Source: Sandarakinorhabdus limnophila DSM 17366
GTDB lineage: Bacteria > Pseudomonadota > Alphaproteobacteria > Sphingomonadales > Sphingomonadaceae
Direction of reading: 5' to 3'
NCBI RefSeq assembly: GCF_000420765.1
Contig: NZ_ATVO01000007.1
Location: 124,001-188,000 of the forward strand
Length of the DNA: 64,000 nucleotides
Part shown: one piece after another, positions 15,129-57,989 of the stretch
Layout: the number at the start of each line of letters is the position of its first letter
Numbering within the stretch: the stretch's first letter is position 1
Notes under the pieces: model-generated
Database searches by the model: none
What the model was told of the DNA's origin: nothing
The model's input: the letters and a program-made list of their open reading frames with translations, nothing else
Program-made: the position numbers and the translations under genes

Positions 15129-15686
15129 TCAGGCCGGGAATGTCTTTCCCATCGGCACGAAGCGCACCGCCACCCCGCCGCAATCCAAATCGATCGGGGC
15201 CTGGCCGGTGTAGCCATGGGCAGCATAGAAGGGCTCGCCGGGCAGAGTCGCCATCAGTTCGGTGCGGGTGAAGCCGGCGTCTGCGGCTGCGTCTTCACAG
15301 GCCTTGAGCAGTGCCGCCCCCACCCCGCGCCGGGCGGCGTGCGGCGCCACGAAGAAGGCGCGGATCTTGGCGGCATCGCGCGCCGGATCGAGCAGGCCGG
15401 ACTCGCGGCCGGCAAACTTGTCCCCGCCGAACAGCGTCGCGCGCTTGCTCCAGCCGCCGCAGCCCAATCGGTCGCCCGCGCTGTCTTCCACCACCAGATA
15501 GGTGCCATCCGCTACCAGCTCCGTATCGACGCCGAACACATGGGCGATGGCGGCTTCGGTTTCCGCAGGCGTGTAGAAACCCTGGCTTAGGATGCGGGCC
15601 GAAGCGGTGATGATGGCCTCAAGCGCCGGGATTTCGGCAGGCTGTGCCTGACGGATGTGCAGATTGGTCATGGTAGCAAGGCTCAT
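15129..15686 (-). CDS. GNAT-family N-acetyltransferase
   Basis: A 185-residue acetyl-CoA-dependent transferase. The acetyl-CoA pyrophosphate loop is visible as ARRGVGAALL (motif A), preceded by the strand AKIRAFFVAP and followed by FYAAHGY (motif B). The acceptor substrate is unknown. Its ATG at 15686 overlaps the stop codon of the upstream amidohydrolase gene (ATGA), so the two are translated from one message. A second ATG at 15671 is possible. Its physical coupling to an exported hydrolase does not by itself show a shared substrate. Confidence 0.85.
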   Translation of the reverse strand: MSLATMTNLHIRQAQPAEIPALEAIITASARILSQGFYTPAETEAAIAHVFGVDTELVADGTYLVVEDSAGDRLGCGGWSKRATLFGGDKFAGRESGLLDPARDAAKIRAFFVAPHAARRGVGAALLKACEDAAADAGFTRTELMATLPGEPFYAAHGYTGQAPIDLDCGGVAVRFVPMGKTFPA

Positions 15687-40995: not shown

Positions 40996-43137
40996 CTACC
41001 GCAATCGCCATGCGTGATAGCGGCCCACCCAGGCCAGCAGACCCTGCGGCGCATGCGCCCGCTTCCAGTTGCCCGCGGCGAACTTGTTGGCTTCGGCCAT
41101 GGTGGGGTAGGTGTGGATGGTGCCGAGCAGCTTGTTGAGGCCCAGGCCGTGCTTCATCGCCAGCACATATTCGGCCAGCAGCTCGCCGGCATGGTCACCG
41201 ACGATGGTGGCGCCCAGTATCTTGTCCTTGCCGGGTGGGGTGAGGACCTTCACGAAACCGGTGGTGGCGCTGTCGGCGATGGCGCGGTCGAGTTCGTGCA
41301 ACTTGTAGGTGGTCACCTCGACCGCGACGCCCTTGGCCTTGGCTTCATCTTCCGACAGGCCGACGCGCGCGATTTCGGGATCGAGGAAGGTTGTCCACGG
41401 GATGACGCGATAATCCGCCTTGAAGCGGCGGAACTGGCCGAACAGCGCGTTCACCGCTGCATACCAGGCCTGGTGCGAAGCGACATGGGTGAACTGGTAT
41501 GGCCCGGCGACATCCCCGCAGGCGTAGATATTGGGATAGAGCGTCGCCAGATAATCGTCGGTCACCACCGTGCGTTCGGTCTCGATGCCCAGCTCTTCCA
41601 AGCCATAGCCGGTGAGGCGCGCCTTGCGGCCAACTGCAACGATCAGCGCGTCGTAGGGCAGGGCGCGTTCGGCGCCGGCGTGGCTGACGATCAGGGTCTG
41701 CGCGCCTTCCACCCGCACCGCCGCATGGCCGGTGAGCACCTCCACGCCGGAGCCGAGCAGCGCTGCATGAGCGATGGCGGCGACATCGTCATCCTCGCGC
41801 GGCAGCACGCGCGGGCCCATCTCCACTTGGCTCACCTGCGCGCCCAGCCGGGCCAGCGCCTGCGCCAGTTCACAACCGATCGGGCCGCCGCCAAGCACGA
41901 TGATGCGTTTGGGAATGGCATCGAGCGCCGAGAAGGCATCCCACAGCGTGTCGCTGGTAAGGTGATTGCTGTCGGTGAGGCCCGGCAGCGGCGGCACCAG
42001 CGGCGCGGCACCGGCCGCGATCACGATGCTGCGGGTGGTGAGGCGCTGGGTTGCGCCGTCGTGACGGGTGATCTCCACCGTCCAGGGATCGAGGATGCGA
42101 GCATGGCCCAGCTCCATGTCGACACCCAGCCCGGTGTAGCGCTCCACGCTGTCGTTGGGTTCGATGGTGGCAATGACATTCCGGATGCGGGCCATGACGG
42201 CGCGGAAATCAAACTGGGCTTCGTGCGGGGTCAGGCCATAGGTATCGGCGTGGCGCATCTGGTGGGCGATGCGGGCGGACTTGATCAAGGCTTTCGATGG
42301 CACGCAGCCATAGTTGAGGCAATCGCCGCCCAGCTTGTGGCTTTCGACCAGCGTCACCTTGGCCTTCACCGTCGCGGCGATATAGGCGCTCACCAGTCCA
42401 GCCGCGCCGCCGCCGATAACCACCATGTTGCGGTCAAACCGGCTTGGGCGGGTCCAGCGGGCATAGACGCGGCGGCGCTTCAGCGCGCTCATCACGGCTT
42501 TCCCGATCCACGGCAGCAGGCCCAGCGCAGCGAAGCTGGCCAGCAGGCCGGGCGAGGCGACATCGCGCAAACTGGAAATGCCGGCCAGCTGCGTGCCAGC
42601 GTTCACATAGACCGCGGTGCCCAGCAACATGCCGATCTGGCTGACCCAGAAATAGGTGAGCGTGCGAATGGGGGTGAGGCCCATCAACAGATTGACCACA
42701 AAGAAGGGAAACACCGGCACCAGCCGCAGCGAGAAAAGGTAGAAGGCGCCATCGCACTCAATCCCGGCGTTGATCGCGCCAAGCCGCGCCCCGAACTTGC
42801 CCTGCACCCAATCACGCAGCAGGTAGCGGGACGTGAGGAAGGCCAAGGTTGCGCCGATGGTGGAGGCGAAGGAGACGATCAGCAGGCCCAGCCCCAGGCC
42901 GAAGATCGCCCCGCCGGCCAGCGTCATGATCGCAGCACCGGGGAAGGACAGGGCCGTGAGTGCCACATAGGCCGCGAAATAGCCGCCGATCACCACAGCC
43001 GGGTTGGCAGCATAGAGCGCGGCGATCTCGCCCTGCCGGGCTTTCAGCGCATCAAGCGTGAGGTACTGGCCAAGGTCGAACTGGAACCAGGCGAAGATCG
43101 CCGCCGCGATCAGCAGGATGATGGGCAGACGTTTCAT
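40996..43137 (-). CDS. Fusion of a TVP38/DedA-like membrane domain and a mercuric-reductase-like flavoenzyme
   Basis: A 713-residue two-part protein. Residues 1-230 form a VTT/DedA-type membrane domain with several helices and the motif SFPGAAIMTLAGGAIFGLGLG, plus YLFSLRLVPVFPFFVVN. Residues 238-713 form a class I pyridine nucleotide-disulfide oxidoreductase: NMVVIGGGAAGLVSAY for FAD, redox pair in GGDCLNYGCVPSKAL, NAD(P)-binding IIVLGGGPIGCELAQAL, FAD site IYACGDVAG, and dimer-interface HTYPTMAEA. The flavoenzyme lacks the C-terminal Cys-Cys of real MerA. Such fusions occur in several proteobacteria. A membrane-tethered disulfide or quinone reductase is plausible; the substrate is unknown. 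Confidence 0.87.
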   Translation of the reverse strand: MKRLPIILLIAAAIFAWFQFDLGQYLTLDALKARQGEIAALYAANPAVVIGGYFAAYVALTALSFPGAAIMTLAGGAIFGLGLGLLIVSFASTIGATLAFLTSRYLLRDWVQGKFGARLGAINAGIECDGAFYLFSLRLVPVFPFFVVNLLMGLTPIRTLTYFWVSQIGMLLGTAVYVNAGTQLAGISSLRDVASPGLLASFAALGLLPWIGKAVMSALKRRRVYARWTRPSRFDRNMVVIGGGAAGLVSAYIAATVKAKVTLVESHKLGGDCLNYGCVPSKALIKSARIAHQMRHADTYGLTPHEAQFDFRAVMARIRNVIATIEPNDSVERYTGLGVDMELGHARILDPWTVEITRHDGATQRLTTRSIVIAAGAAPLVPPLPGLTDSNHLTSDTLWDAFSALDAIPKRIIVLGGGPIGCELAQALARLGAQVSQVEMGPRVLPREDDDVAAIAHAALLGSGVEVLTGHAAVRVEGAQTLIVSHAGAERALPYDALIVAVGRKARLTGYGLEELGIETERTVVTDDYLATLYPNIYACGDVAGPYQFTHVASHQAWYAAVNALFGQFRRFKADYRVIPWTTFLDPEIARVGLSEDEAKAKGVAVEVTTYKLHELDRAIADSATTGFVKVLTPPGKDKILGATIVGDHAGELLAEYVLAMKHGLGLNKLLGTIHTYPTMAEANKFAAGNWKRAHAPQGLLAWVGRYHAWRLR

Positions 43138-47326: not shown

Positions 47327-47790
47327 TCAGCGTGTATAGTTGGTGGCCACCCAGTCGCGGTAGCTGCCGTCGATCACCGCCCGCCACCAGCCTTTATTGG
47401 CCAGATACCAGTGCAGGGTTTCGGCAAAGCCCTGATCGAAGGTCCGCGCCGGAGCATAGCCTAGTTCGGCGCGTGCCTTGGTCTCGTCAATGGCATAGCG
47501 CCGATCATGGCCAGGACGATCGGTGACGAAGGTTTTCAGGCTGGCGGTGGGCTGGCCCTTGGCTGCCGGCGAGCCCGGGAAGCGCGCGGCGAGGCCGGGG
47601 TCAGCGGCAAAGGCGGCATCCACGGCAGCGCACAGCGTTTCGATCACGGTCAGGTTGGGCAATGGGCACCGCTACCGATATTGTAGGTCTTGCCCACCCG
47701 GCCCTTGAGCAGGGTCGCCTCGATGCCGCGGCAGTGATCTTCCACATGCAGCCAATCACGGATCTGCATGCCGATCCACAGGTCTTCATC
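47327..47790 (-). pseudogene. Remnant of a dTDP-glucose 4,6-dehydratase gene (rfbB/rmlB)
   Basis: Only the C-terminal half of the enzyme survives. The stretch with [14 protein letters not shown] and [13 protein letters not shown] (about 47675-47780) reads in one frame; then a one-base shift near 47660 moves to the frame with [28 protein letters not shown] and ALHWYLANKGWW-like end (stop at 47327). The Rossmann fold and YxxxK active site are missing. Homology stops abruptly near 47780. The intact enzyme makes dTDP-4-keto-6-deoxyglucose for rhamnose-type sugars in exopolysaccharide or O-antigen. The gene is dead: 5' deletion plus frameshift. Confidence 0.85.
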
Positions 47791-47871
47791 TTCGTTCCTT
47801 CGTCACTACGACGAAGCCCCAACCCTCCTTAATTCACAACCTCAAATCTGTGCCATTGGTGCTGACGGGGG

Positions 47872-47967
47872 ACACTCTATTACATTGAGAATTGGTCGAT
47901 CTGGCTCGATCTCTACATCTTGGTGCGGACCGTGGGTGCGGTTTTACTGCCCCGGAATGCCTTCTGA
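47872..47967 (+). pseudogene. 3' remnant of a polyprenyl-phosphate sugar transferase gene
   Basis: The last 31 or so codons of a bacterial sugar transferase (WcaJ/PssY type) are preserved: LYYIENWSIWLDLYILVRTV, then GAVLLPRNAF and TGA at 47965-47967. This matches the conserved C-terminal helix of exopolysaccharide-initiating phosphoglycosyltransferases. No homology is visible upstream of about 47872. The remnant and the rfbB fragment point away from each other's missing 5' ends, with only about 90 bases of unassigned DNA between. A deletion between two divergent EPS genes would leave exactly this. Confidence 0.75.
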
Positions 47968-48159
47968 GAGCGGTTGGCCGAGGGCGGGGCACGGCCTGCC
48001 GCAGACCTGACCGACCCTGGGCGGACAGAATGTCGCATTAGTAGCAAAATTACCATTCGCCACTTGGCGGCGACATAATCTTACCCTAAGCGCGGCTTCT
48101 ATCACGATTTCCTGTCCGTTGGCCGGCCTTTGCCGTGTCAGCGGCAATGGTTGGGCAGA
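47968..48159 (+). promoter_or_regulatory. Upstream region of the propionyl-CoA synthase gene
   Basis: These 192 bases must hold the promoter of the 3-hydroxypropionate genes unless an upstream one is used. The only structure I see is the short palindrome CGCCA-CT-TGGCG (48058-48069), a possible operator, with CATAAT just downstream (48074-48079) as a weak -10. No clear -35 or ribosome-binding site is visible. Confidence 0.3.
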
Positions 48160-51100
48160 ATGAACATGGTTGATCCCACTGCTGCTGCGCGTGTCCAGAT
48201 GCTGGTTCCCGGTGTCAATCCGGTGCGCACCCGAGCCGATTGGGAGGCAATGCGTGCCGAAGTTCTGACGGATCCGGGCGCGTTCCACGGCAGGATTGCT
48301 GCCCAAAACCTGCATTGGCTGGTTGATGTCGCCGGCCGCCCGGCCTGGCTGAGCAAATCGGAGGCCGGTTGGACCGGTTGGGATGCCGAAACCGCCGCGT
48401 CAGTGACCGCCGATCTGGGCGACGATTTCGTGCCCTGGACGCGCGCCTTCAACGCCGATGACGCGCCCAACTTCCGCTGGTTTGAAGGTGGCCGCACCAA
48501 CGCCGCCTTCAACGAGCTCGATCGCCACGTGCTCGCCGGCCACGGCGCGGAAGCCGCCTTCATCTTCGAGGGTGACCGCTGGGATCTCGCCGCCAACAAT
48601 GGCCGCGGCGCGCCGGTCGATTGCGTCACCGTCTCGCGCCGTCAGTTGCTGCTGGAAGCCGCCAAGTGTGCCGTCGCATTGCAGAAGCTCGGCCTCAAGG
48701 CCGGCGACCGCATCGCGCTCAACATGCCCAACGTGCCGGCCCAGCTGTACTGGACCGAAGCGGCCAAGCGCATCGGCGTCATCTACACGCCGGTGTTCGG
48801 CGGCTTTTCGGATAAGACATTGTCTGACCGCATCCACGATGCCGGCGCCCGTATCGTCATCACCGCAGACGGCGGCTATCGCAACGCCCAGATCGTGCCG
48901 TTCAAGACCGCCTATACCGATCCGGCGCTGGACAATTATGTGCCGGTCAATGTCGCGCTGCGGATGCTTGAGGACCGCCTGGGCGGGACCGATCTTGGCC
49001 TGTCCGACACGACCCGCACCGCCATGGCCGGCATCGTAACGGCGGCGCTCAAGGGCGAAGTTACCGTCGAGCGCGGTGACGTGATGCGCGGCCTGGGCCG
49101 GGCGCTGGCCGAACTGGGTAAGGAAGGCCTGGTTGATGCCGCGCAGTCCGCCCGCATCCGCATCGCCATCGCCGAAACACTGGTCTCCACCCCGCCGCGC
49201 GTCGATGCGGTGATCGTTGCCAATCATGCCCATGTGCCCGATATCGTCTGGCGTGATCGCGATGTGTGGGGCCATGATCTCACCAACGCCGCGCTGGCCG
49301 ACATCCTCGCTGCGGCCGGCTTGCCCGATGAAGCGGCATTGCATGCGCTCGACGATCAGGCGTTCGTGGCGGCCCTCTGGAAGGCGTCGAAGCCGCTTCC
49401 GGTGGATGCCGAATATCCGCTGTTCTTCATCTACACCTCGGGTTCCACCGGCAAGCCCAAGGGCGTCGTCCACGTCCACGGCGGCTATGCCAGCGGCATC
49501 ATGGAGACCATGAAAGTGGCCTTCGACGCCCGCCCCGGTGATACCATCTTCGTTGTCGCCGATCCGGGCTGGATCACCGGCCAGAGCTACATGATCGCCG
49601 CCGCGCTGCTGAGCCGCGTCACCACCGTGCTGGCCGAAGGCTCGCCGGTGTTCCCGCACGCCGGCCGCTTTGCCGCCATGATCGAGAATCACGGCGTCAC
49701 CATCTTCAAGGCCGGTGTCACCTTCCTGAAGGCGGTGATGACCGATCCGCAGAATCTGAAGGACATCCAGGCCTACGACCTCAGCGGCTTGCGCGTCGCC
49801 ACCTTCTGCGCAGAGCCCTGCTCGCCGCCGGTGCAGGCGTTCGGCATGGAGAATATCACGCCGCAGTACATCAACAGCTATTGGGCGACCGAGCATGGCG
49901 GCATCGCCTGGACGCATTTCTATGGCAACGGCGATTTCCCGCTGGCCGCGGATGCCCGCACCTTCCCGCTGCCGTGGATCGTGGGCGATGTGTGGGTGGA
50001 AGACGAAGCCGGCGACAGACAAGCCCGCGTGCTGTTGAACCGCGACGGAAGCGATGGCGTCACCTGGCGCAAGGCTGGCCGCGGCGAGAAGGGCGAGATC
50101 ATCATCGCCGCGCCCTATCCCTATCTCGCCCGCACCGTATGGGGCGATTCCGAGAATTTCCGCGTCGAAAATGGCGCCGTCGCCTCCGGCTGGGCCGGTG
50201 ACTCGGTGCGCTGGCGCGATGGTTACTGGAGCCGCTGGCAGGGCGTGTGGGCCTATACCCAGGGCGATTTCGCCGTGCAGGGCGATGATGACGGCTTCTC
50301 GCTGCATGGCCGTTCGGATGACGTGATCAACGTGTCTGGTCACCGCATGGGCACCGAGGAAATCGAAGGCGCCATCCTGCGCGACAAGGCGCTCAATCCG
50401 GAAAGCCCGGTCGGCAACGTGCTCGTGGTCGGCGCGCCGCACCGCGAGAAGGGGCTGACGCCGCTCGCCTTCATCACGCCAGCCCCCGGCCAGATCATCA
50501 CCCGCGATGACGAACGCCGGCTTTCCGACCTTGTGCGCACTGAAAAGGGCGCGGTCGCCGTGCCGGGCGATTTCCTGGTCGTCTCCCAGTTCCCCGAAAC
50601 CCGCAGCGGCAAATACATGCGCCGCATGGTGCGCGCGCTGGTGGAAGGCACGCCGATTGGTGACGTCACCACGCTGAAGAACCCGGAGAGCTTGGACGAG
50701 CTCAAGCGCGTCATCAGCGCCTGGGAGCGCAAGCAGCGCCTGTCCGAAGATCAGGATATCTTCGATCGCTATCGCTATTTCCGCATCCAGTACAACACGG
50801 TCGCGCCCGGCAAGAAGGTGGCCACGGTGTTCATCACCAACCCGCCGGTGAACGCGCTCAACGAACGCGCCATCGACGAACTGGTGATCGTCGTCGAGCA
50901 TCTGTCGCGCCGCGATGATGTGGCCGCCGTGGTGTTCACCGGTGACGGTACCGCCAGCTTCGTGGCGGGCGCTGACATCCGCCAGTTCCTGGAAGAAATC
51001 CACACGGTTGAAGAAGCCCGCGTGCTGCCGGCCAACGCCCAGCTGGCGTTCGGCAAGATCGAGCAGATGGGCAAGCCCTGCGTCGCGGCCATTCAGGGCG

Positions 51101-53655
51101 TGGCGCTGGGCGGCGGCATGGAATTCGCGCTGGCCTGCCATTATCGCGTCGCTGAAAGCCACGCCCGTTTCGGCCAGCCAGAAATCCGCCTGCGCCTGCT
51201 GCCGGGCTATGGCGGTACCCAGCGGCTGCCGCGTCTGCTCACCGATCGGCGTGGGCCGGAAGGGATGCTGGATGCGCTTGATCTGATCCTCGGTGGACGC
51301 AGCGTCGAAGCGGCGGATGCGCTGGACATGGGCGCCATCGATGCCATCGCCGATGGTGCCAATGATGCGCTCAGCCTCGCTCATGCCGCCGTGCGTGAAT
51401 TCGTGCGCCTCGGTGACACCAGCCATCTGGGCCGCGCCTGGGCGGAACGCCGCAAGGCTGCCAAGAGCGCCTGGCAACATGAAGGCCATGTCGATCTGGA
51501 TCATGCGCTGGCCGATCCGTTCGTGCAGCGAATCCTGAAGCAGCTCGATTGGGCCGGCCGCGGCAAGGCCGGTGAGCGCGCCATCGATGCGATCCGCACC
51601 GGCTGGACTCAGGGCATGGCCGCCGGCCTCGCTCGCGAAGCCGAATTGTTCAGCGAAGCCGTGGTTGATCCCGAAGGCGGCAAGACCGGCATCCGCCTGT
51701 TCATGGACAAGAAGGCGCCGCCGTTGCCGGTGCGCCGTAACGGCGTGCACATTGAAGCTGAGTTCGACGCCAAGGCAGAGCGGCTGGAAGCGGCCGGCGA
51801 CCTGCTGCCGGTGGGCGCGCCCTTCTTCCCCGGCGTCACCCCGATTCCGGGCCATCAATATGGCTTCGGCATCGCCCGCAGCCCGGATACCGGCGCGCCG
51901 CAGTTCGGTCCGCCGGAAACCCACGAGAAGCAGTTGATCGTGCCGACGCCGCAGCCGGAGCCGAACGAGGCGCTGGTCTATCTGCTCAGCAGCGAAGTGA
52001 ACTTCAACGATATCTGGGCCTTGACCGGCATTCCTGTCTCCCCGTTCGACAATCACGAGGAAGATGTGCAGCTGACGGGTTCCGGCGGTTTGGCGCTGGT
52101 CGCCGCGCTGGGCAGCGAAGTTCGCGGGCAGGGCCGGCTCAAGGTGGGTGATATGGTGGCGGTCTATTCCGGCACCTCTGATCTGCTCAGCCCGCAGGCC
52201 GGGCGTGACCCGATGTATGCCGATTTCTCCATCCAGGGGTACGAGACGAAATCGGGCAGCCATGCCCAGTTCCTCACCGTGCAGGCGCCGCAGCTGCACC
52301 CGGTCCCCGGCGATCTGACGCTGGAACAGGCCGGCAGCTACATCCTCAACCTCGGCACCATCTGGCGCTGCCTCTACACCACGCTGGAAATCATCGGCGG
52401 CAAGACCATCTTTATCGAAGGTTCGGCCACCGGCACCGGGCTTGATGCGCTGAAATCAGCCAAGGCCAGCGGGCTCGCCGTGACGGGCCTGGTTTCCAGC
52501 CCGGCCCGTGCCGAGTTCGTGATGTCCAAGGGCGCCGTGGGCGCGCTCGATCGCACCGATCCGCGCTTCAAATCGCTGTTCACCTCGGTGCCCGATGGCA
52601 CGAAGGCGGATTGGGCGGCGTGGGAACAGGCCGGCGAAGCGCTGGTGGCGGAATACAAGGCGCTGAATGGCGGCAAGCTGGCGGATTATGCCGTGTCCCA
52701 CGCCGGTGAAACCGCCTTCCCGCGCAGCTTCCAGTTGCTGGGCGATGGCGGCGTGCTGGCCTTCTATGGCGCGTCGTCGGGCTATCACCTCAGCTTCATG
52801 GGCAAGAAGGGCGGTTCCGATCCGGTTTCCATGTTGGCCCGCGCCGGTGCGCGTGGCGGCGAGGCCGTGCTGATCTTCTATGGCCCCGGCACCACCCAGC
52901 TGGCGGACGAGACCGGCCTGGAGATGATCGAGGCGGCGCGCGGGCTGGGTTGCCGCATCGTGGTTGTCACCAACACCGATGGCCAGCGCGAGTTTATCCT
53001 GTCGCTGGGCTTTGAAGATGCGGTGGCGGGCGTCGTGTCCCTTGAAGGCATCAAGCGGCGTGAAGGCGCCAATTTCGATTGGCCCGACACCATGCCGCGC
53101 CTGCCGGTGGCGCGCGAGGATATCGAGAATTTCCGCGAGGCCGTGCGCCAGTTCCAGGACAAGACGCTGAAGCCCTTCGGCAATGCGGTGGGCAAGCTGC
53201 TGCGTTCGCCGGACAATCCGCGCGGCAACCCGGATATCGTGCTGGAACGCGCCGGGCAGGACACGCTGGGCGTGACGACGGCGCTGGTGAAACCGTTCAC
53301 CGGCCGCGTGGTCTATTGCGAGGACATGGCCGGGCAGCGGTATAATTTCTACGCGCCGCAGGTATGGACGCGTCAGCGCCGGATCGTGATGCCGATGGCG
53401 GAAATCCGCGGCACACACTTGTGCAACGCCTACGAAGTCACCCGCATGAACGACATGATCGCGGCCGGCATCCTGGACGTGACCGAGCCGACGGTGGTGC
53501 CGTGGGAAGGACTGCCGGAAGCGCACCAGAGCATGTGGGACAACCGCCACACGGGGGCGACTTACATCGTCAACCACGCGCTGCCGGCGATGGGGCTGCG
53601 CGGCAAGGATGAACTCTACGAGGCTTGGGCGTCGTTGAAGGGGCAGGGGGAATGA
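48160..53655 (+). CDS. pcs: Trifunctional propionyl-CoA synthase (3-hydroxypropionate to propionyl-CoA)
   Basis: One chain of 1831 residues runs three reactions: 3-hydroxypropionate + CoA + ATP to 3-hydroxypropionyl-CoA, dehydration to acryloyl-CoA, and NADPH reduction to propionyl-CoA. Residues 1-860 are an AMP-forming acyl-CoA synthetase (YTSGSTGKPKG from 425, catalytic K818 in SGKYMRR). Residues 875-1130 are an enoyl-CoA hydratase with both active-site glutamates, E988 (GGGMEFAL) and E1008 (FGQPEIRL). Residues 1217-1831 are a crotonyl-CoA-reductase-like MDR domain (FIEGSATGTGLDALKSA near 1418). Domain order and length match the Chloroflexus enzyme (about 1822). ATG 48160 is chosen; ATG 48166 is possible, and TTG 48130 lacks support. 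Joined by ATGA to the malonyl-CoA reductase gene. Confidence 0.93.
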   Translation: MNMVDPTAAARVQMLVPGVNPVRTRADWEAMRAEVLTDPGAFHGRIAAQNLHWLVDVAGRPAWLSKSEAGWTGWDAETAASVTADLGDDFVPWTRAFNADDAPNFRWFEGGRTNAAFNELDRHVLAGHGAEAAFIFEGDRWDLAANNGRGAPVDCVTVSRRQLLLEAAKCAVALQKLGLKAGDRIALNMPNVPAQLYWTEAAKRIGVIYTPVFGGFSDKTLSDRIHDAGARIVITADGGYRNAQIVPFKTAYTDPALDNYVPVNVALRMLEDRLGGTDLGLSDTTRTAMAGIVTAALKGEVTVERGDVMRGLGRALAELGKEGLVDAAQSARIRIAIAETLVSTPPRVDAVIVANHAHVPDIVWRDRDVWGHDLTNAALADILAAAGLPDEAALHALDDQAFVAALWKASKPLPVDAEYPLFFIYTSGSTGKPKGVVHVHGGYASGIMETMKVAFDARPGDTIFVVADPGWITGQSYMIAAALLSRVTTVLAEGSPVFPHAGRFAAMIENHGVTIFKAGVTFLKAVMTDPQNLKDIQAYDLSGLRVATFCAEPCSPPVQAFGMENITPQYINSYWATEHGGIAWTHFYGNGDFPLAADARTFPLPWIVGDVWVEDEAGDRQARVLLNRDGSDGVTWRKAGRGEKGEIIIAAPYPYLARTVWGDSENFRVENGAVASGWAGDSVRWRDGYWSRWQGVWAYTQGDFAVQGDDDGFSLHGRSDDVINVSGHRMGTEEIEGAILRDKALNPESPVGNVLVVGAPHREKGLTPLAFITPAPGQIITRDDERRLSDLVRTEKGAVAVPGDFLVVSQFPETRSGKYMRRMVRALVEGTPIGDVTTLKNPESLDELKRVISAWERKQRLSEDQDIFDRYRYFRIQYNTVAPGKKVATVFITNPPVNALNERAIDELVIVVEHLSRRDDVAAVVFTGDGTASFVAGADIRQFLEEIHTVEEARVLPANAQLAFGKIEQMGKPCVAAIQGVALGGGMEFALACHYRVAESHARFGQPEIRLRLLPGYGGTQRLPRLLTDRRGPEGMLDALDLILGGRSVEAADALDMGAIDAIADGANDALSLAHAAVREFVRLGDTSHLGRAWAERRKAAKSAWQHEGHVDLDHALADPFVQRILKQLDWAGRGKAGERAIDAIRTGWTQGMAAGLAREAELFSEAVVDPEGGKTGIRLFMDKKAPPLPVRRNGVHIEAEFDAKAERLEAAGDLLPVGAPFFPGVTPIPGHQYGFGIARSPDTGAPQFGPPETHEKQLIVPTPQPEPNEALVYLLSSEVNFNDIWALTGIPVSPFDNHEEDVQLTGSGGLALVAALGSEVRGQGRLKVGDMVAVYSGTSDLLSPQAGRDPMYADFSIQGYETKSGSHAQFLTVQAPQLHPVPGDLTLEQAGSYILNLGTIWRCLYTTLEIIGGKTIFIEGSATGTGLDALKSAKASGLAVTGLVSSPARAEFVMSKGAVGALDRTDPRFKSLFTSVPDGTKADWAAWEQAGEALVAEYKALNGGKLADYAVSHAGETAFPRSFQLLGDGGVLAFYGASSGYHLSFMGKKGGSDPVSMLARAGARGGEAVLIFYGPGTTQLADETGLEMIEAARGLGCRIVVVTNTDGQREFILSLGFEDAVAGVVSLEGIKRREGANFDWPDTMPRLPVAREDIENFREAVRQFQDKTLKPFGNAVGKLLRSPDNPRGNPDIVLERAGQDTLGVTTALVKPFTGRVVYCEDMAGQRYNFYAPQVWTRQRRIVMPMAEIRGTHLCNAYEVTRMNDMIAAGILDVTEPTVVPWEGLPEAHQSMWDNRHTGATYIVNHALPAMGLRGKDELYEAWASLKGQGE

Positions 53656-56600
53656 ACGCGATGGGCAAGACCGAAACGCAGGGCCGCCTTGCCGGCAAGG
53701 TGGCGCTGATCACCGGGGCCGCCGGCAATCTGGGCGGCAGTATCGTGCGGCGCTATCTGGCCGAAGGGGCCACCGTGGTGATGAGCGGCCGAGATGCCGC
53801 GCGCACGCAGGCCGCGCTGGATGCCGCTGTTGCCGATGTCGGCGGCACCGCCAGCATCGTGACGATGGACGGCGCCAACATCGAATCCGTGCGCGCCGGC
53901 ATTGCCGACGTCGTCGCCCGCCACGGCCGCATCGATGTGCTGGTCAACAACGCCGGTTCGGCCGGGCCGAAACAGGTGCTGGGCGATCTGCCGCTGCTGC
54001 CCGAAGAACTGGAAGGCACGCCCGACAGCGAGACGGTGGGCGATGCTGCCCGCAACATCATGGTGGTGGCCTGGAATCTGGTGCGTGCCGCCGCTTCAGC
54101 AATGGGCGAAGGCGGCAGCATCATTAATGTCTCCACCATCTTCAGCCGCACCGATTATTTCGGCCGTGCTGCCTACACGGTGCCCAAGGCCGCGCTGAAC
54201 ATCCTTTCAAAGGGCATTGCGCGTGAACTCGGCACCCGCGGGATTCGCGTGAACCAGCTCTATCCCGGCCCGATTGCTTCCGAACGCATCCGCACCGTTT
54301 TTGCCGCCATGGACAAGCTGAAGGGCGACGACGCCGGCAGCACCGCCAACCACTTCTTCAACCTGATGGCGCTGGAACGCAGCGTGGGCGAGGACGCCAA
54401 GGCCAAGACCTTCCCGACGCCGGCCGATATCGCCAACACCTGCGTGTTCCTGGGCAGCGATGAGAGCGCCGCCTTTGCCGCTCATGATTTCGAAGTGACC
54501 CACGGCATGGCCGTGCCGCTTGAATCAAAGAGCGAGTTTCTGCACCGGCCCGATCTGCGCGCCATTGATGGTGATGGCCACGGCATCTTGATCAGTGCCG
54601 GCAACCAGTTGGACGACGCGCTGGCCATGGCCGGGCTGTTCGCCGCCCAAGGCTCAAAGGTGTTGCTCGGTTTCCATGCCCAGGCGGCGCTGGATGATGC
54701 CGCCGAGCGGCTGCCGGCCGGCGTGAAAGCAGTGCGCTTCCCGCGCCATGATCACATGGCGATGGATGCCGAACTGGCGCGCTTCACCGCGCACGTAGCA
54801 GCCATCGATGGCGCCATCATCCTGCCAACGCGCGGCCCGGGCTATTTCCACGGGGCGCTGAACGAAGCCAGCGATGCGGCGGTGGAACGCTTTGTCGATG
54901 ATGAACTGGAAGGCGCCATTGCGGTGGCGCGTACGCTCGATCGCTATTGGCAGCAGGGCCAGGATCTACCTGGCGATCCGCGCGTGCTGTTCATCACCAA
55001 TCCCGACGATGGCGCCGGCAACGGTTGGGCCGATGTGGGCCGTGCTGCCATCGAGGAACTGCTTCGCGTGTGGCGCGACGAGGCGCGGGTGGCCGCCACG
55101 CAGGGCAAGACGCCCCGCCCGGTGTGGGGCAACCAGATCGTGCGCTTTGGCAACAATGAGCCGGAGAACCGCGATTTCGCCGCCGGCCACGCCGCCCGCC
55201 TGCTGCTGGGAGGCCGCCAGATCGAGCCGATCAACCTGTACATCCCGGCCAGCATCACCAAGGCCACCGGAGCCCGCCGTGCGCTGGCCGGTACGGCGGA
55301 AAACATCACCGGGCTGCATTTGGGCAAGGTGGCGCTGATCACCGGCGGTTCGGCCGGCATCGGCGGCGCACTGGCGCGTCTGCTGGCCTTGGCCGGTGCC
55401 AAGGTGATGATGGTGGCCCGCCGCGAATCCGAACTGGATGCTGCGCGTGAACGCATTGTGGGCGAATTGCAGGATATCGGTTTTGCCGGCGTGGAACGCC
55501 GAGTGCTCACCCTGGCCGGTATCGATGTGGCCGACATGAAATCGCTGAAGCACGCGGTTGACGAGACCGTGCGCGCCTTTGGCCGCATCGATTATCTGAT
55601 CAACAATGCCGGTGTGTCGGGCGCGGAGGAGATGGCGGTGGACATGGGGGTGGAGAATTTCCGCCATACCCAGTTTGCCAATCTCATCTCCAACTATGCC
55701 CTGATGCATATGGTTGTGCCGATGATGCGCAAGCAGGGATCGGGCTATATCCTCAATGTTTCCAGCTATTTCGGTGGCGAGAAGTATCTGGCGGTATCTT
55801 ACCCGAACCGCACCGATTATGCCGTGTCCAAATCCGGACAGCGGGCCATGGTCGAATCCATGGCCCGCCACCTCGGGCCGGAAATCCAGATCAACGCCAT
55901 CGCGCCTGGCCCGGTGGACGGGGATCGCCTCGCTGGCTTGGGCGGCAAGCCCGGCCTGTTCGAACGGCGCGGCCGGCTGATTCTGGAGAACAAGCGGCTG
56001 AACGCCGTCCACTCCGCCGTGATCAAATCGGTGCGCGCGGGCGGTTCGGTGGCGCAAATCCTGTTCCGCCTGTCGCGCAACGATTCGGTGCAACTGAGCC
56101 ACGACAAGTCCAACCCGCAGCCGCTGCGGGATCTGGCGCTGGCCTGCGCCCGTGAAGGCGATGAAAGCTGCTGCTGGGATCGTTTCATCCTCACGCCCGT
56201 GCTGGCGGCCAAGCTGCTGAAGCGGCTGCGGCTGGGCGGCTGGCTGATCGGCACCGACTGGCAGAGCCGTGATGAGAGCGACTGGCTGCTGCGCGTGCCG
56301 CCCGATGACATGCCGTGGCTGCCCGTCGCCCAGATCGGCCGCGAAGCCGCCAAGGTGCGCGGCGGCGTGCTTTCCCAGCTCCACCTCGGCAAGATGCCGA
56401 CGGAGACGGAAGTGGCGCAGGCCACGGTGTTCTTCCTCGCCGATCGCGCCGTTTCGGGTGAAACCTTCATGCCGTCGGGCGGCCTCAACGTCGAACGCTC
56501 GGCCACCGAACGCGAATTGTTCGGCAGCCCCAAGGCCGAACGACTGGCCCAGATGGGTGGGAAGACGGTGTGGCTGGTGGGCGAGCATCTCGCCGATTAT

Positions 56601-57266
56601 CTGGGTGCCGCCGCACAGGGCTTCCTCAATTGCGACGTGGCGCGTGTGGTCCTGATCACCGCGAGTGCCGCCGGGGCGACAGCCATCAAGGGCCATATCG
56701 GTAGCGGTGCCGACCGGGTCGAATCGCTGCTCATCGACGGCGAGATTGAAACGGCGCTTGATGCAGCGCTGGCGACGTGGGGCCATCCCACCACCATCGT
56801 TTCGACGCCTTTGAAGGCCTTGCCCGATCAACTGTTTGATGCGGACAATCCGCTAGATGGCGATGGCTTTGCCGACGTGGTGGAACATAATCTCACCCAC
56901 CATTTCCGCATCGCCCGAAAGGTGTCGCTGTTCGACGAATGCCAGCTGGTGCTGGTTTCGCCCGATGTGCCGATGGGCGAGGGGGCCAAGGGTGCGTTTG
57001 CGCTGGCCAATTTCGTCAAGACGACGCTGCACGCCTTTACGGCAACTATTGCCGTGGAGAATGAGCGGCTAGTGCACGAAGTGGCTGTAAATCAGATCAA
57101 CCTCACCCGCCGCGTGCGATCCGAAGAGCCAAAGAACGCGGCCGAGCATGAGGAAGAGGTGCGCCGCTTTGCCCGTGCCGTGCTGCTGGCCGGGGCACCG
57201 CTGCCGGATGCGGAGGACAGCCGTTATCGGAGCCGCATCTATCGGGGCATGAGCCTGACCGTCTAG
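53652..57266 (+). CDS. mcr: Bifunctional malonyl-CoA reductase (NADPH, 3-hydroxypropionate-forming)
   Basis: Reduces malonyl-CoA to malonate semialdehyde and then to 3-hydroxypropionate. The 1204-residue chain is a tandem of two short-chain-dehydrogenase halves, as in Chloroflexus (about 1220). In the N-terminal half, TGAAGNLG (21-28) binds NADPH and the active site is S161, Y175, K179 (YTVPK); by analogy it reduces the semialdehyde. In the C-terminal half, TGGSAGIG (564-571) and S704, Y723, K727 (YAVSK) should reduce malonyl-CoA. Each half has an extra Rossmann-like extension. ATG 53652 overlaps the pcs stop (ATGA) with an AGGGGG site. It would feed its product directly to Pcs. Confidence 0.93.
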   Translation: MNAMGKTETQGRLAGKVALITGAAGNLGGSIVRRYLAEGATVVMSGRDAARTQAALDAAVADVGGTASIVTMDGANIESVRAGIADVVARHGRIDVLVNNAGSAGPKQVLGDLPLLPEELEGTPDSETVGDAARNIMVVAWNLVRAAASAMGEGGSIINVSTIFSRTDYFGRAAYTVPKAALNILSKGIARELGTRGIRVNQLYPGPIASERIRTVFAAMDKLKGDDAGSTANHFFNLMALERSVGEDAKAKTFPTPADIANTCVFLGSDESAAFAAHDFEVTHGMAVPLESKSEFLHRPDLRAIDGDGHGILISAGNQLDDALAMAGLFAAQGSKVLLGFHAQAALDDAAERLPAGVKAVRFPRHDHMAMDAELARFTAHVAAIDGAIILPTRGPGYFHGALNEASDAAVERFVDDELEGAIAVARTLDRYWQQGQDLPGDPRVLFITNPDDGAGNGWADVGRAAIEELLRVWRDEARVAATQGKTPRPVWGNQIVRFGNNEPENRDFAAGHAARLLLGGRQIEPINLYIPASITKATGARRALAGTAENITGLHLGKVALITGGSAGIGGALARLLALAGAKVMMVARRESELDAARERIVGELQDIGFAGVERRVLTLAGIDVADMKSLKHAVDETVRAFGRIDYLINNAGVSGAEEMAVDMGVENFRHTQFANLISNYALMHMVVPMMRKQGSGYILNVSSYFGGEKYLAVSYPNRTDYAVSKSGQRAMVESMARHLGPEIQINAIAPGPVDGDRLAGLGGKPGLFERRGRLILENKRLNAVHSAVIKSVRAGGSVAQILFRLSRNDSVQLSHDKSNPQPLRDLALACAREGDESCCWDRFILTPVLAAKLLKRLRLGGWLIGTDWQSRDESDWLLRVPPDDMPWLPVAQIGREAAKVRGGVLSQLHLGKMPTETEVAQATVFFLADRAVSGETFMPSGGLNVERSATERELFGSPKAERLAQMGGKTVWLVGEHLADYLGAAAQGFLNCDVARVVLITASAAGATAIKGHIGSGADRVESLLIDGEIETALDAALATWGHPTTIVSTPLKALPDQLFDADNPLDGDGFADVVEHNLTHHFRIARKVSLFDECQLVLVSPDVPMGEGAKGAFALANFVKTTLHAFTATIAVENERLVHEVAVNQINLTRRVRSEEPKNAAEHEEEVRRFARAVLLAGAPLPDAEDSRYRSRIYRGMSLTV

Positions 57267-57274
57267 GCGGTCAG
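57255..57274. other. Inverted repeat across the convergent mcr and parA stops
   Basis: CTGACCG (57255-57261) and CGGTCAG (57268-57274) form a 7-bp stem whose six-base loop contains both stop codons. There is no T-run, so termination would be weak. Partly it reflects similar C-terminal codons (LTV and LTA) on opposite strands. Confidence 0.4.
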
Positions 57275-57982
57275 CCGCCGCTCCACATCGGTCCACAATC
57301 CAGCGATGGCGGTGGCGGCCGGGCTGCTGCGGCCAGCGAGCAGGGGCTGGCGCGTAGCGGTCATGGCTTCGACGGCGGCGGCATAGGGGATCACCGGCCA
57401 TTCGGGATGCGCGGCCAGTGCCTCACGGTGCAGGCCCTTGCGGCGATCGGCCATGGAAAACGCTGGCATCACCGGCGGCGGTGATTTCATTTCAGCAGCG
57501 AGGTGTTGCGTCAACTGCTCCAGCGCCCGCGTGGAGAGCGGCGAGGGGATCAGCGGCACCACGATGAGATCGGCCGCGCGGAACAGTTGATCGGCCAATT
57601 CAGTGAGACCAGGCGGGCAATCAAGGATGATGCGATCATAGCGATCTTCCAGTGATTTCAGCGCTTTTTTCAGCCGCTTTTCACCTTCCGTGGCAAGATC
57701 GGCCTCCAGCCGGCGCAGCGAGCGATCAGCGGCCAGCACATCGAGATTGGGGAAGGCGGTCGGCTGCACCAGATCGGCGAGATCGGCTTCGGCGAGGCCC
57801 TTGCGGGCCTTGGCACCGGCGCGCGGTTCTACCTTCAGCAGCCAGCTGGCAGCACCCTGAGCGTCCAGATCCCACAGCAGGGTGCGCCGACCCGAAAGCG
57901 TAGCCGCAGCATGGGCCAGGTTGACGGCCAGCGCAGTCTTGCCCACCCCGCCCTTCACGCTGAACAGGGCGATGCAGCGCAT
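57263..57982 (-). CDS. ParA/MinD-family ATPase
   Basis: A 239-residue deviant-Walker-A ATPase. The nucleotide loop KGGVGKTALAVNLA starts at K10, the signature lysine of the ParA/MinD group; the switch region is DLDAQGAASWLL and Walker B-like DRIILDCPPGL. The C-terminal half has PLIPSPLSTRALEQL. There is no helix-turn-helix N-terminus and no ParB gene beside it, so this is not the chromosomal parAB locus. It may position an unknown cargo. It converges with mcr, overlapping by four bases, and lies seven bases past the merR stop on the same strand. Confidence 0.85.
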   Translation of the reverse strand: MRCIALFSVKGGVGKTALAVNLAHAAATLSGRRTLLWDLDAQGAASWLLKVEPRAGAKARKGLAEADLADLVQPTAFPNLDVLAADRSLRRLEADLATEGEKRLKKALKSLEDRYDRIILDCPPGLTELADQLFRAADLIVVPLIPSPLSTRALEQLTQHLAAEMKSPPPVMPAFSMADRRKGLHREALAAHPEWPVIPYAAAVEAMTATRQPLLAGRSSPAATAIAGLWTDVERRLTA

Positions 57983-57989
57983 GTGCGGA

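Follow-up and report, generated by a model that had tools for sequence, protein, structure and literature searches.

The closest described counterparts of the genes considered here are the propionyl-CoA synthases (PCS) of Erythrobacter sp. NAP1 and Chloroflexus, and the malonyl-CoA reductases (MCR) of Porphyrobacter dokdonensis and Roseiflexus castenholzii. The same enzymes are reported for Porphyrobacter sp. ULC335, an aerobic anoxygenic phototroph from the group formed by Erythrobacter and Porphyrobacter. For this strain, CO2 co-assimilation by these enzymes has been proposed, with reference to Erythrobacter NAP1 (PMC10674011). The pathway has also been described outside the Chloroflexota in metagenome-assembled genomes (MAGs) of Burkholderiales and Gemmatimonadota, including Burkholderiales families with predicted photosynthesis (PMC9802188). 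In these papers and in a study on Microcystis-bloom phototrophs (PMC11089705), both the enzymes and their proposed part in CO2 co-assimilation are already in print. Here we analyse a pcs-mcr gene pair of a further genus, found in Sandarakinorhabdus limnophila DSM 17366 within a stretch of 64,000 nucleotides (contig NZ_ATVO01000007.1, positions 124,001 to 188,000 of the forward strand; henceforth “the window”).

Among the sampled genomes, this pair is almost confined to those of bacteria with photosynthetic reaction centres. It is the distribution, not the enzymes, that is worth following up, and no statement on a strict nesting of the pair within phototrophs was found in the extracts of open-access literature searched. 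With a probability of roughly 0.7, we propose that the pair would serve as a light-powered, CO2-co-assimilating and redox-balancing supplement to heterotrophy, rather than as a means of autotrophy.

Gene Pair and Enzyme Identity

The two genes and their predicted parts are arranged on the plus strand as follows, with the type of evidence given in brackets.

48160..53655, plus strand: pcs, ATG at 48160 and stop codon to 53655, propionyl-CoA synthase of 1831 amino acids with 3-hydroxypropionate:CoA ligase, 3-hydroxypropionyl-CoA dehydratase and acryloyl-CoA reductase functions (frame, solved-chain match, Pfam)
48427..50712, plus strand: acyl-CoA ligase part of PCS, amino acids about 90-851, towards the end of which K818 is located (solved-chain match, Pfam, residue check)
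50815..51594, plus strand: enoyl-CoA hydratase part of PCS, amino acids about 886-1145, with E988 and E1008 (Pfam, residue check)
51826..53556, plus strand: MDR-type reductase part of PCS, amino acids about 1223-1799 (solved-chain match, NCBIfam, Pfam)
53652..53655, plus strand: ATGA overlap of the pcs stop and the mcr start
53652..57266, plus strand: mcr, ATG at 53652 and stop codon to 57266, bifunctional malonyl-CoA reductase of 1204 amino acids (frame, solved-chain match, Pfam, residues)
53682..55256, plus strand: N-terminal half of MCR (SDR1-SDR2), predicted to convert malonate semialdehyde to 3-hydroxypropionate (match to 6k8v and 8hi6; roles as given in the extract of PMC10470521)
55263..57263, plus strand: C-terminal half of MCR (SDR3-extra domain-SDR4), predicted to convert malonyl-CoA to malonate semialdehyde (match to 6k8s and 8i6z; roles from the same extract)

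The match of the gene pair to both enzymes is far beyond chance. Coordinates, reading frames and the ATGA overlap had been given in an initial annotation of this DNA, and re-reading both open reading frames reproduced them exactly. The overlap is likely to couple translation of mcr to that of pcs, and the two genes probably form an operon that serves the 3-hydroxypropionate route in its reductive half. Judged by sequence, the identities of both enzymes, their coupling and the capacity for five steps from malonyl-CoA to propionyl-CoA, all proposed in that annotation, hold.

PCS residues 24-1827 of 1831 align to the solved chain 6eqo_A (2824 bits, E=0). This chain, labelled “Acetyl-coenzyme A synthetase” in the PDB, we take to be the PCS of Erythrobacter NAP1, the chain length of 1850 being the length of the NAP1 gene from its ATG. 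The window protein shares 68.4% identity over 1816 aligned positions with the NAP1 protein (locus L063, read from an internal start codon for this figure) and 59% with the proteins of Chloroflexus loci. Domain order is the same and length similar; the window protein diverges from these known enzymes in sequence, with no difference in architecture seen. Pfam domains of the AMP-binding, ECH and zinc-dehydrogenase types place ligase, enoyl-CoA hydratase and MDR reductase in the order of the trifunctional synthase on one chain of about 1800 amino acids; the zinc-dehydrogenase match bears out the MDR reductase domain that had been read from the letters alone. The reductase part is related to crotonyl-CoA carboxylase/reductase, scoring 203.6 bits and thus below the model cut-off of 378.55.

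The ligase lysine K818 and the hydratase glutamates E988 and E1008, the roles of which are known from their enzyme families, are present where the initial annotation had put them, and an alignment of 10 PCS proteins shows all three to be invariant. D1284 is likewise invariant in 10 homologues and presumably corresponds to D1302 of the NAP1 enzyme, a correspondence extrapolated from the alignment by a 13-residue shift. At that site, an aspartate (reductase) or an asparagine (crotonyl-CoA carboxylase/reductase) separates reductases from carboxylases. The window PCS is predicted to convert 3-hydroxypropionate, ATP, CoA and NADPH to propionyl-CoA.

MCR matches its known counterparts end to end. 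Residues 9-1204 of 1204 align to the solved chain 8hi4_A, which was assigned to R. castenholzii via the agreement of residue numbers, and residues 10-1204 to 8hjw_A; matches to both halves of the P. dokdonensis enzyme (6k8s and 6k8v) were obtained as well. Pfam detects two short-chain-dehydrogenase stretches, and the general SDR subfamily NF005559 scores above its cut-off (232 vs 215 bits); no enzyme-specific NCBIfam model is among the best 25 matches listed for PCS or for MCR. Thirteen residues shown by mutation or structure in R. castenholzii, according to the extract of PMC10470521, were transferred to the window protein through the 8hi4 alignment. Eight of them, in SDR3 and the extra domain, were mapped by script in agreement with the 8hi4 numbering, and the five in SDR1 were counted by eye from one motif position. 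All 13 residues (T162, Y169, R172, Y175, K179, S705, Y717, R720, Y723, K727, R759, L769 and R773) are kept and invariant in 10 MCR proteins. They include the SDR1 triad with the Tyr and Arg that bind malonate semialdehyde, the SDR3 Ser-Tyr-Lys with a Tyr/Arg pair, and the extra-domain Arg, in agreement with the intact SDR active sites noted before in both halves. The window MCR is predicted to reduce malonyl-CoA to 3-hydroxypropionate with NADPH.

Distribution among Reaction-Centre-Bearing Bacteria

A sample of 396 genomes of the window's order was searched for both enzymes, with matches accepted at E up to 1e-150 for PCS and at E up to 1e-100 for MCR. Each enzyme was found in 34 genomes, and the two sets of genomes are identical. 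PufL/M occur in 79 genomes of the order. The pcs-mcr pair is present in 34 of these 79 and in none of the 317 others (Fisher p about 1.5e-27, related genomes being counted as independent). When genera are counted, which is the sole control for kinship, the pair occurs in 8 of the 23 with puf genes and in 0 of the 61 without them (p about 1e-5). Within the window's own genus, five of the six sampled genomes carry PCS, MCR and PufL/M, and the sixth (G338) lacks all three.

A similar picture emerges beyond the order. In the order of Methylibium (sample centred on locus L081), PCS was found in 3 of 340 genomes, one match being partial, and PufL/M in 43; the three fall within the 43, one of them being the centre of the sample, which was selected for having PCS. 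From 80 named loci, the best 80 of 400 synthase relatives, 25 were picked that fall outside the window's order or have no clear place inside it, and 23 of these 25 PCS-bearing genomes possess PufL/M. Generalizing from these samples, we tentatively suggest that outside the Chloroflexota pcs-mcr may be a phototrophy-dependent module that spread among Gemmatimonadota and the alpha-, beta- and gammaproteobacteria and has been retained only alongside a type II reaction centre, though it lies outside the photosynthesis gene cluster; the odds of this broader claim we put slightly below even.

The pair and the reaction-centre genes are not neighbours. They share a contig in 13 of the 34 genomes, at distances from 79 kb to 1.7 Mb, and lie on different contigs in 21, an arrangement that in draft assemblies carries little information on distance. 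Since the pair is not adjacent to the photosynthesis genes, the nesting is not explained by one compact travelling cluster.

Gene Order and Phylogeny

Of the 80 named loci, 68 encode MCR directly downstream of PCS and in the same orientation; 17 of these 68 offer an ATG at the -4 position. Among the 12 loci without a downstream MCR, seven break off at a contig end or close to one (L031, L055, L066, L076, L088, L101, L106), four have room for the gene (L105, L107 and L109 of Chloroflexota, and L099), and one, also of Chloroflexota (L110), offers only 1.1 kb. While mcr overlaps pcs in the window, the three Chloroflexota loci that extend 7.4 kb or more beyond pcs contain no mcr match at any point. 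An apparent PCS-MCR fusion in locus L092 was ruled out, as a stop at 15526 ends PCS and the MCR frame follows. Locus L099 stems from Aneurinibacillus danicus (Bacillota), the PCS of which (L099:2207-7666) is 58% identical to that of the window and sits among reading frames resembling ordinary bacterial genes. No MCR match is found in this contig of 10.9 kb, and a stand-alone use of the synthase on external 3-hydroxypropionate or acrylate is possible.

In a quick tree built from the window and 79 of the 80 named loci, Aerophototrophica (Rhodospirillaceae) falls inside the sphingomonad group, Erythrobacteraceae appear in two places and Gemmatimonadota in three. These scattered placements suggest horizontal transfers of the predicted synthases, several of the rows concerned being long-branched. 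The Gemmatimonadota synthases are found beside gammaproteobacteria, alone, and near alpha- and betaproteobacteria (L089, L100 and L101), and all three genomes carry PufL/M.

Photosystem Genes and Fate of Propionyl-CoA

The assembly comprises 2,613,739 bases in 11 contigs and is listed as 99.99% complete. Among named relatives, its synthase is closest to those of Sandarakinorhabdus sp. AAP62, S. oryzae and S. rubra (93-95%); the synthase of a MAG from a pond reaches 98%. A contig of strain AAP62 (locus L034) bears the pair as well. Much of the genomic context that the initial annotation had named alongside the pair is present, including a mutase and a candidate carboxylase, the absence of which had been set as grounds for refutation. 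Profile searches identified pufL (447 bits, cut-off 266) and pufM (514 bits, cut-off 364), as well as bchY and bchZ over their curated cut-offs; the organism is therefore, by gene content, a bacteriochlorophyll-based phototroph, and presumably, judging by its named relatives, one with an aerobic and non-autotrophic life. A methylmalonyl-CoA mutase is encoded (NF006944, 1197 bits vs a cut-off of 876). There are five carboxyltransferase matches; one beta chain best matches a solved propionyl-CoA carboxylase (3n6r, 857 bits), and a biotin-carboxylase protein of 689 amino acids is encoded about 1.3 kb from it. Two short carboxyltransferase matches are AccA- and AccD-like, named by eye with no family model run. 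Mutase and carboxylase were searched for in this one of the 34 pair-bearing genomes, where gene content supports the predicted reductive half together with a drain to succinyl-CoA.

Physiological Role of the Pair

The proposed route would start with malonyl-CoA made from acetyl-CoA and HCO3-. MCR would then consume two NADPH, its C-terminal half acting first and its N-terminal half second, to convert malonyl-CoA to 3-hydroxypropionate. PCS would form the CoA ester, dehydrate it to acryloyl-CoA and spend a third NADPH on the reduction to propionyl-CoA, which propionyl-CoA carboxylase and methylmalonyl-CoA mutase would turn into succinyl-CoA. These steps are the established chemistry of the respective enzyme families. 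On balance, acetyl-CoA and two bicarbonates would replenish the tricarboxylic acid (TCA) cycle, which is expensive in terms of ATP and NADPH, and the route may be kept because energy derived from light covers this expense. In Porphyrobacter sp. ULC335, genes of the 3-hydroxypropionate bi-cycle rise by day according to the extract of PMC10674011. It is from these day transcripts and from the nesting within reaction-centre bearers that we infer a light-paid flux, and the activity of the pair, the direction of flux and its dependence on light are to be read in the same conditional sense.

Several observations weigh against a light-powered supplement of this kind. The pair is missing from 45 of the 79 reaction-centre-bearing genomes of the order, and phototrophy therefore does not require it. 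Two PCS-bearing genomes yield no PufL/M match, namely a Steroidobacteraceae MAG of 2.0 Mb and not known completeness (L086) and A. danicus (L099). The statistics of the nesting treat related genomes as independent, which the genus count softens; the strict thresholds used in the order samples would miss distant or partial copies, and the named loci, as the best 80 of 400 relatives, cover the nearer PCS proteins. In four of the 13 genomes with a shared contig, the distance to the reaction-centre genes is under 130 kb, and a loose linkage to photosynthesis genes is possible in some lineages. The PpsR-type site TGT-N12-ACA was not found in the 300 bases upstream of the window's pcs, and it occurs in 2 of 71 upstream regions (70 loci plus the window), against about 3 expected from mononucleotide shuffles. 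PpsR control of the operon is accordingly not supported, and the lack of such a site upstream speaks against a simple light switch. Isocitrate lyase is encoded in the genome as well (1058.7 bits vs 446 for NF005074), and the route is thus not the sole anaplerotic path. Finally, the Microcystis-bloom study, in which Sandarakinorhabdus is among the enriched genera, is reported in its extract to have detected no propionyl-CoA carboxylase (PMC11089705); unlike the phototrophs described there, the genome analysed here carries a candidate for this enzyme.

Other uses of the same enzymes have to be set against the light-powered supplement. The pair might mainly provide propionyl-CoA as a building block, e.g., for odd-chain lipids or 3-hydroxyvalerate units, or serve as a sink for NADPH, with little flux to succinyl-CoA. 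Propionyl-CoA is the established endpoint of PCS, the three NADPH used per turn would fit a sink, and the genes annotated beside the operon, encoding an NhaA-type antiporter and a ParA-type ATPase, are not part of a propionyl-CoA drain; nevertheless, the genome possesses both a mutase and a carboxylase nearest to solved propionyl-CoA carboxylases, and we consider this account unlikely, albeit the most serious of the alternatives. A use of external 3-hydroxypropionate or acrylate, e.g., from the breakdown of dimethylsulfoniopropionate (DMSP), with PCS doing the work, would fit a synthase without an MCR match, as in A. danicus, and PCS alone suffices for it. Yet MCR is unnecessary for external 3-hydroxypropionate, and PCS never occurs without MCR in the sampled order (34 of 34 genomes), in line with the prevailing gene order in the named loci. 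The initial annotation had offered mixotrophic CO2 incorporation, redox balancing and the use of external 3-hydroxypropionate side by side; the first two are retained in the light-powered supplement, whereas external use alone is the weakest of the three because the synthase never occurs without the reductase in the sampled genomes of the order, and we regard it as very improbable.

Equally improbable is a role in a complete, autotrophic 3-hydroxypropionate bi-cycle like that of Chloroflexus. The genome encodes both key enzymes of the first cycle, and near-complete or complete bi-cycle sets are reported from some photosynthetic Burkholderiales and from Gemmatimonadota (PMC9802188); for such MAGs, a bi-cycle over a completeness threshold is claimed there, whereas the first half only is supported in the window's genome. 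The initial annotation had also named malyl-CoA lyase. The genome's sole HpcH/HpaI match is a CitE-like protein of 286 amino acids that scores under the CitE and RipC cut-offs and shares about 29% identity over 304 positions with a Chloroflexus protein as large as a malyl-CoA lyase. A counterpart with 65% identity occurs in G338, the genome of the same genus without pcs-mcr. As the only HpcH/HpaI match is CitE-like, the second Chloroflexus cycle is unsupported, the C1-C4 CoA transferase and the hydratases not having been searched for. Moreover, a Porphyrobacter with PCS and MCR is said to possess no full fixation pathway (PMC10674011).

Replacement of the glyoxylate shunt by the pair was considered separately and is refuted: an isocitrate-lyase-family match is present in 77 of the 79 reaction-centre genomes, including all 34 that bear the pair. 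One of the 77 (G002) has a partial match only, which may represent another member of the family.

Upstream Region and Flanks

A comparison of conserved blocks in the 285 bases upstream of pcs revealed a further pair of features:

48030..48082, plus strand: ATGTCGCA (at about 48030) and GACATAAT (at about 48072), two non-coding blocks that the window shares without any change with seven relatives

The two blocks could be a candidate promoter. Further upstream, positions 47327-47967 appear to be the scar of a lost exopolysaccharide-type region. The scar holds a C-terminal GDP-mannose dehydratase-like fragment on the minus strand, a weak match that narrowly misses the Pfam cut-off. Between 47875 and about 47967 it retains the final codons of a gene that relatives possess in a longer form and that looks sugar transferase-like by eye. 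When eight loci of the same clade are compared, similarity to their flanks starts at 47875 in seven, and 9.7 kb upstream of the break in the relative L034 are absent from the window. On the other side of the operon, a gene for a ParA/MinD-like ATPase (57263-57982, minus strand) runs towards mcr and has four bases in common with the end of mcr; the ATPase gene is apparently absent in the relative L033, where the alignment skips from 57262 to 57983. Farther away, a minus-strand gene (40996-43137) is predicted to encode a fusion of a VTT membrane domain and a pyridine nucleotide-disulphide oxidoreductase.

Implications for Aerobic Anoxygenic Phototrophs

A partial 3-hydroxypropionate route in aerobic anoxygenic phototrophs is easily overlooked. 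A case in point is Porphyrobacter sp. AAP82, for which the abstract of the genome announcement states that carbon-fixation genes are absent (PMC3593325), and of which a contig (L085) carries the pcs-mcr pair. If the proposed reading is true, light energy would make a costly carboxylating route selectable, and a defined fraction of the reaction-centre-bearing genomes (34 of the 79 sampled in the order) would represent light-powered CO2 co-assimilators, while the rest would not. Two key genes would then predict which of these phototrophs supplement organic carbon with CO2 when light is available.

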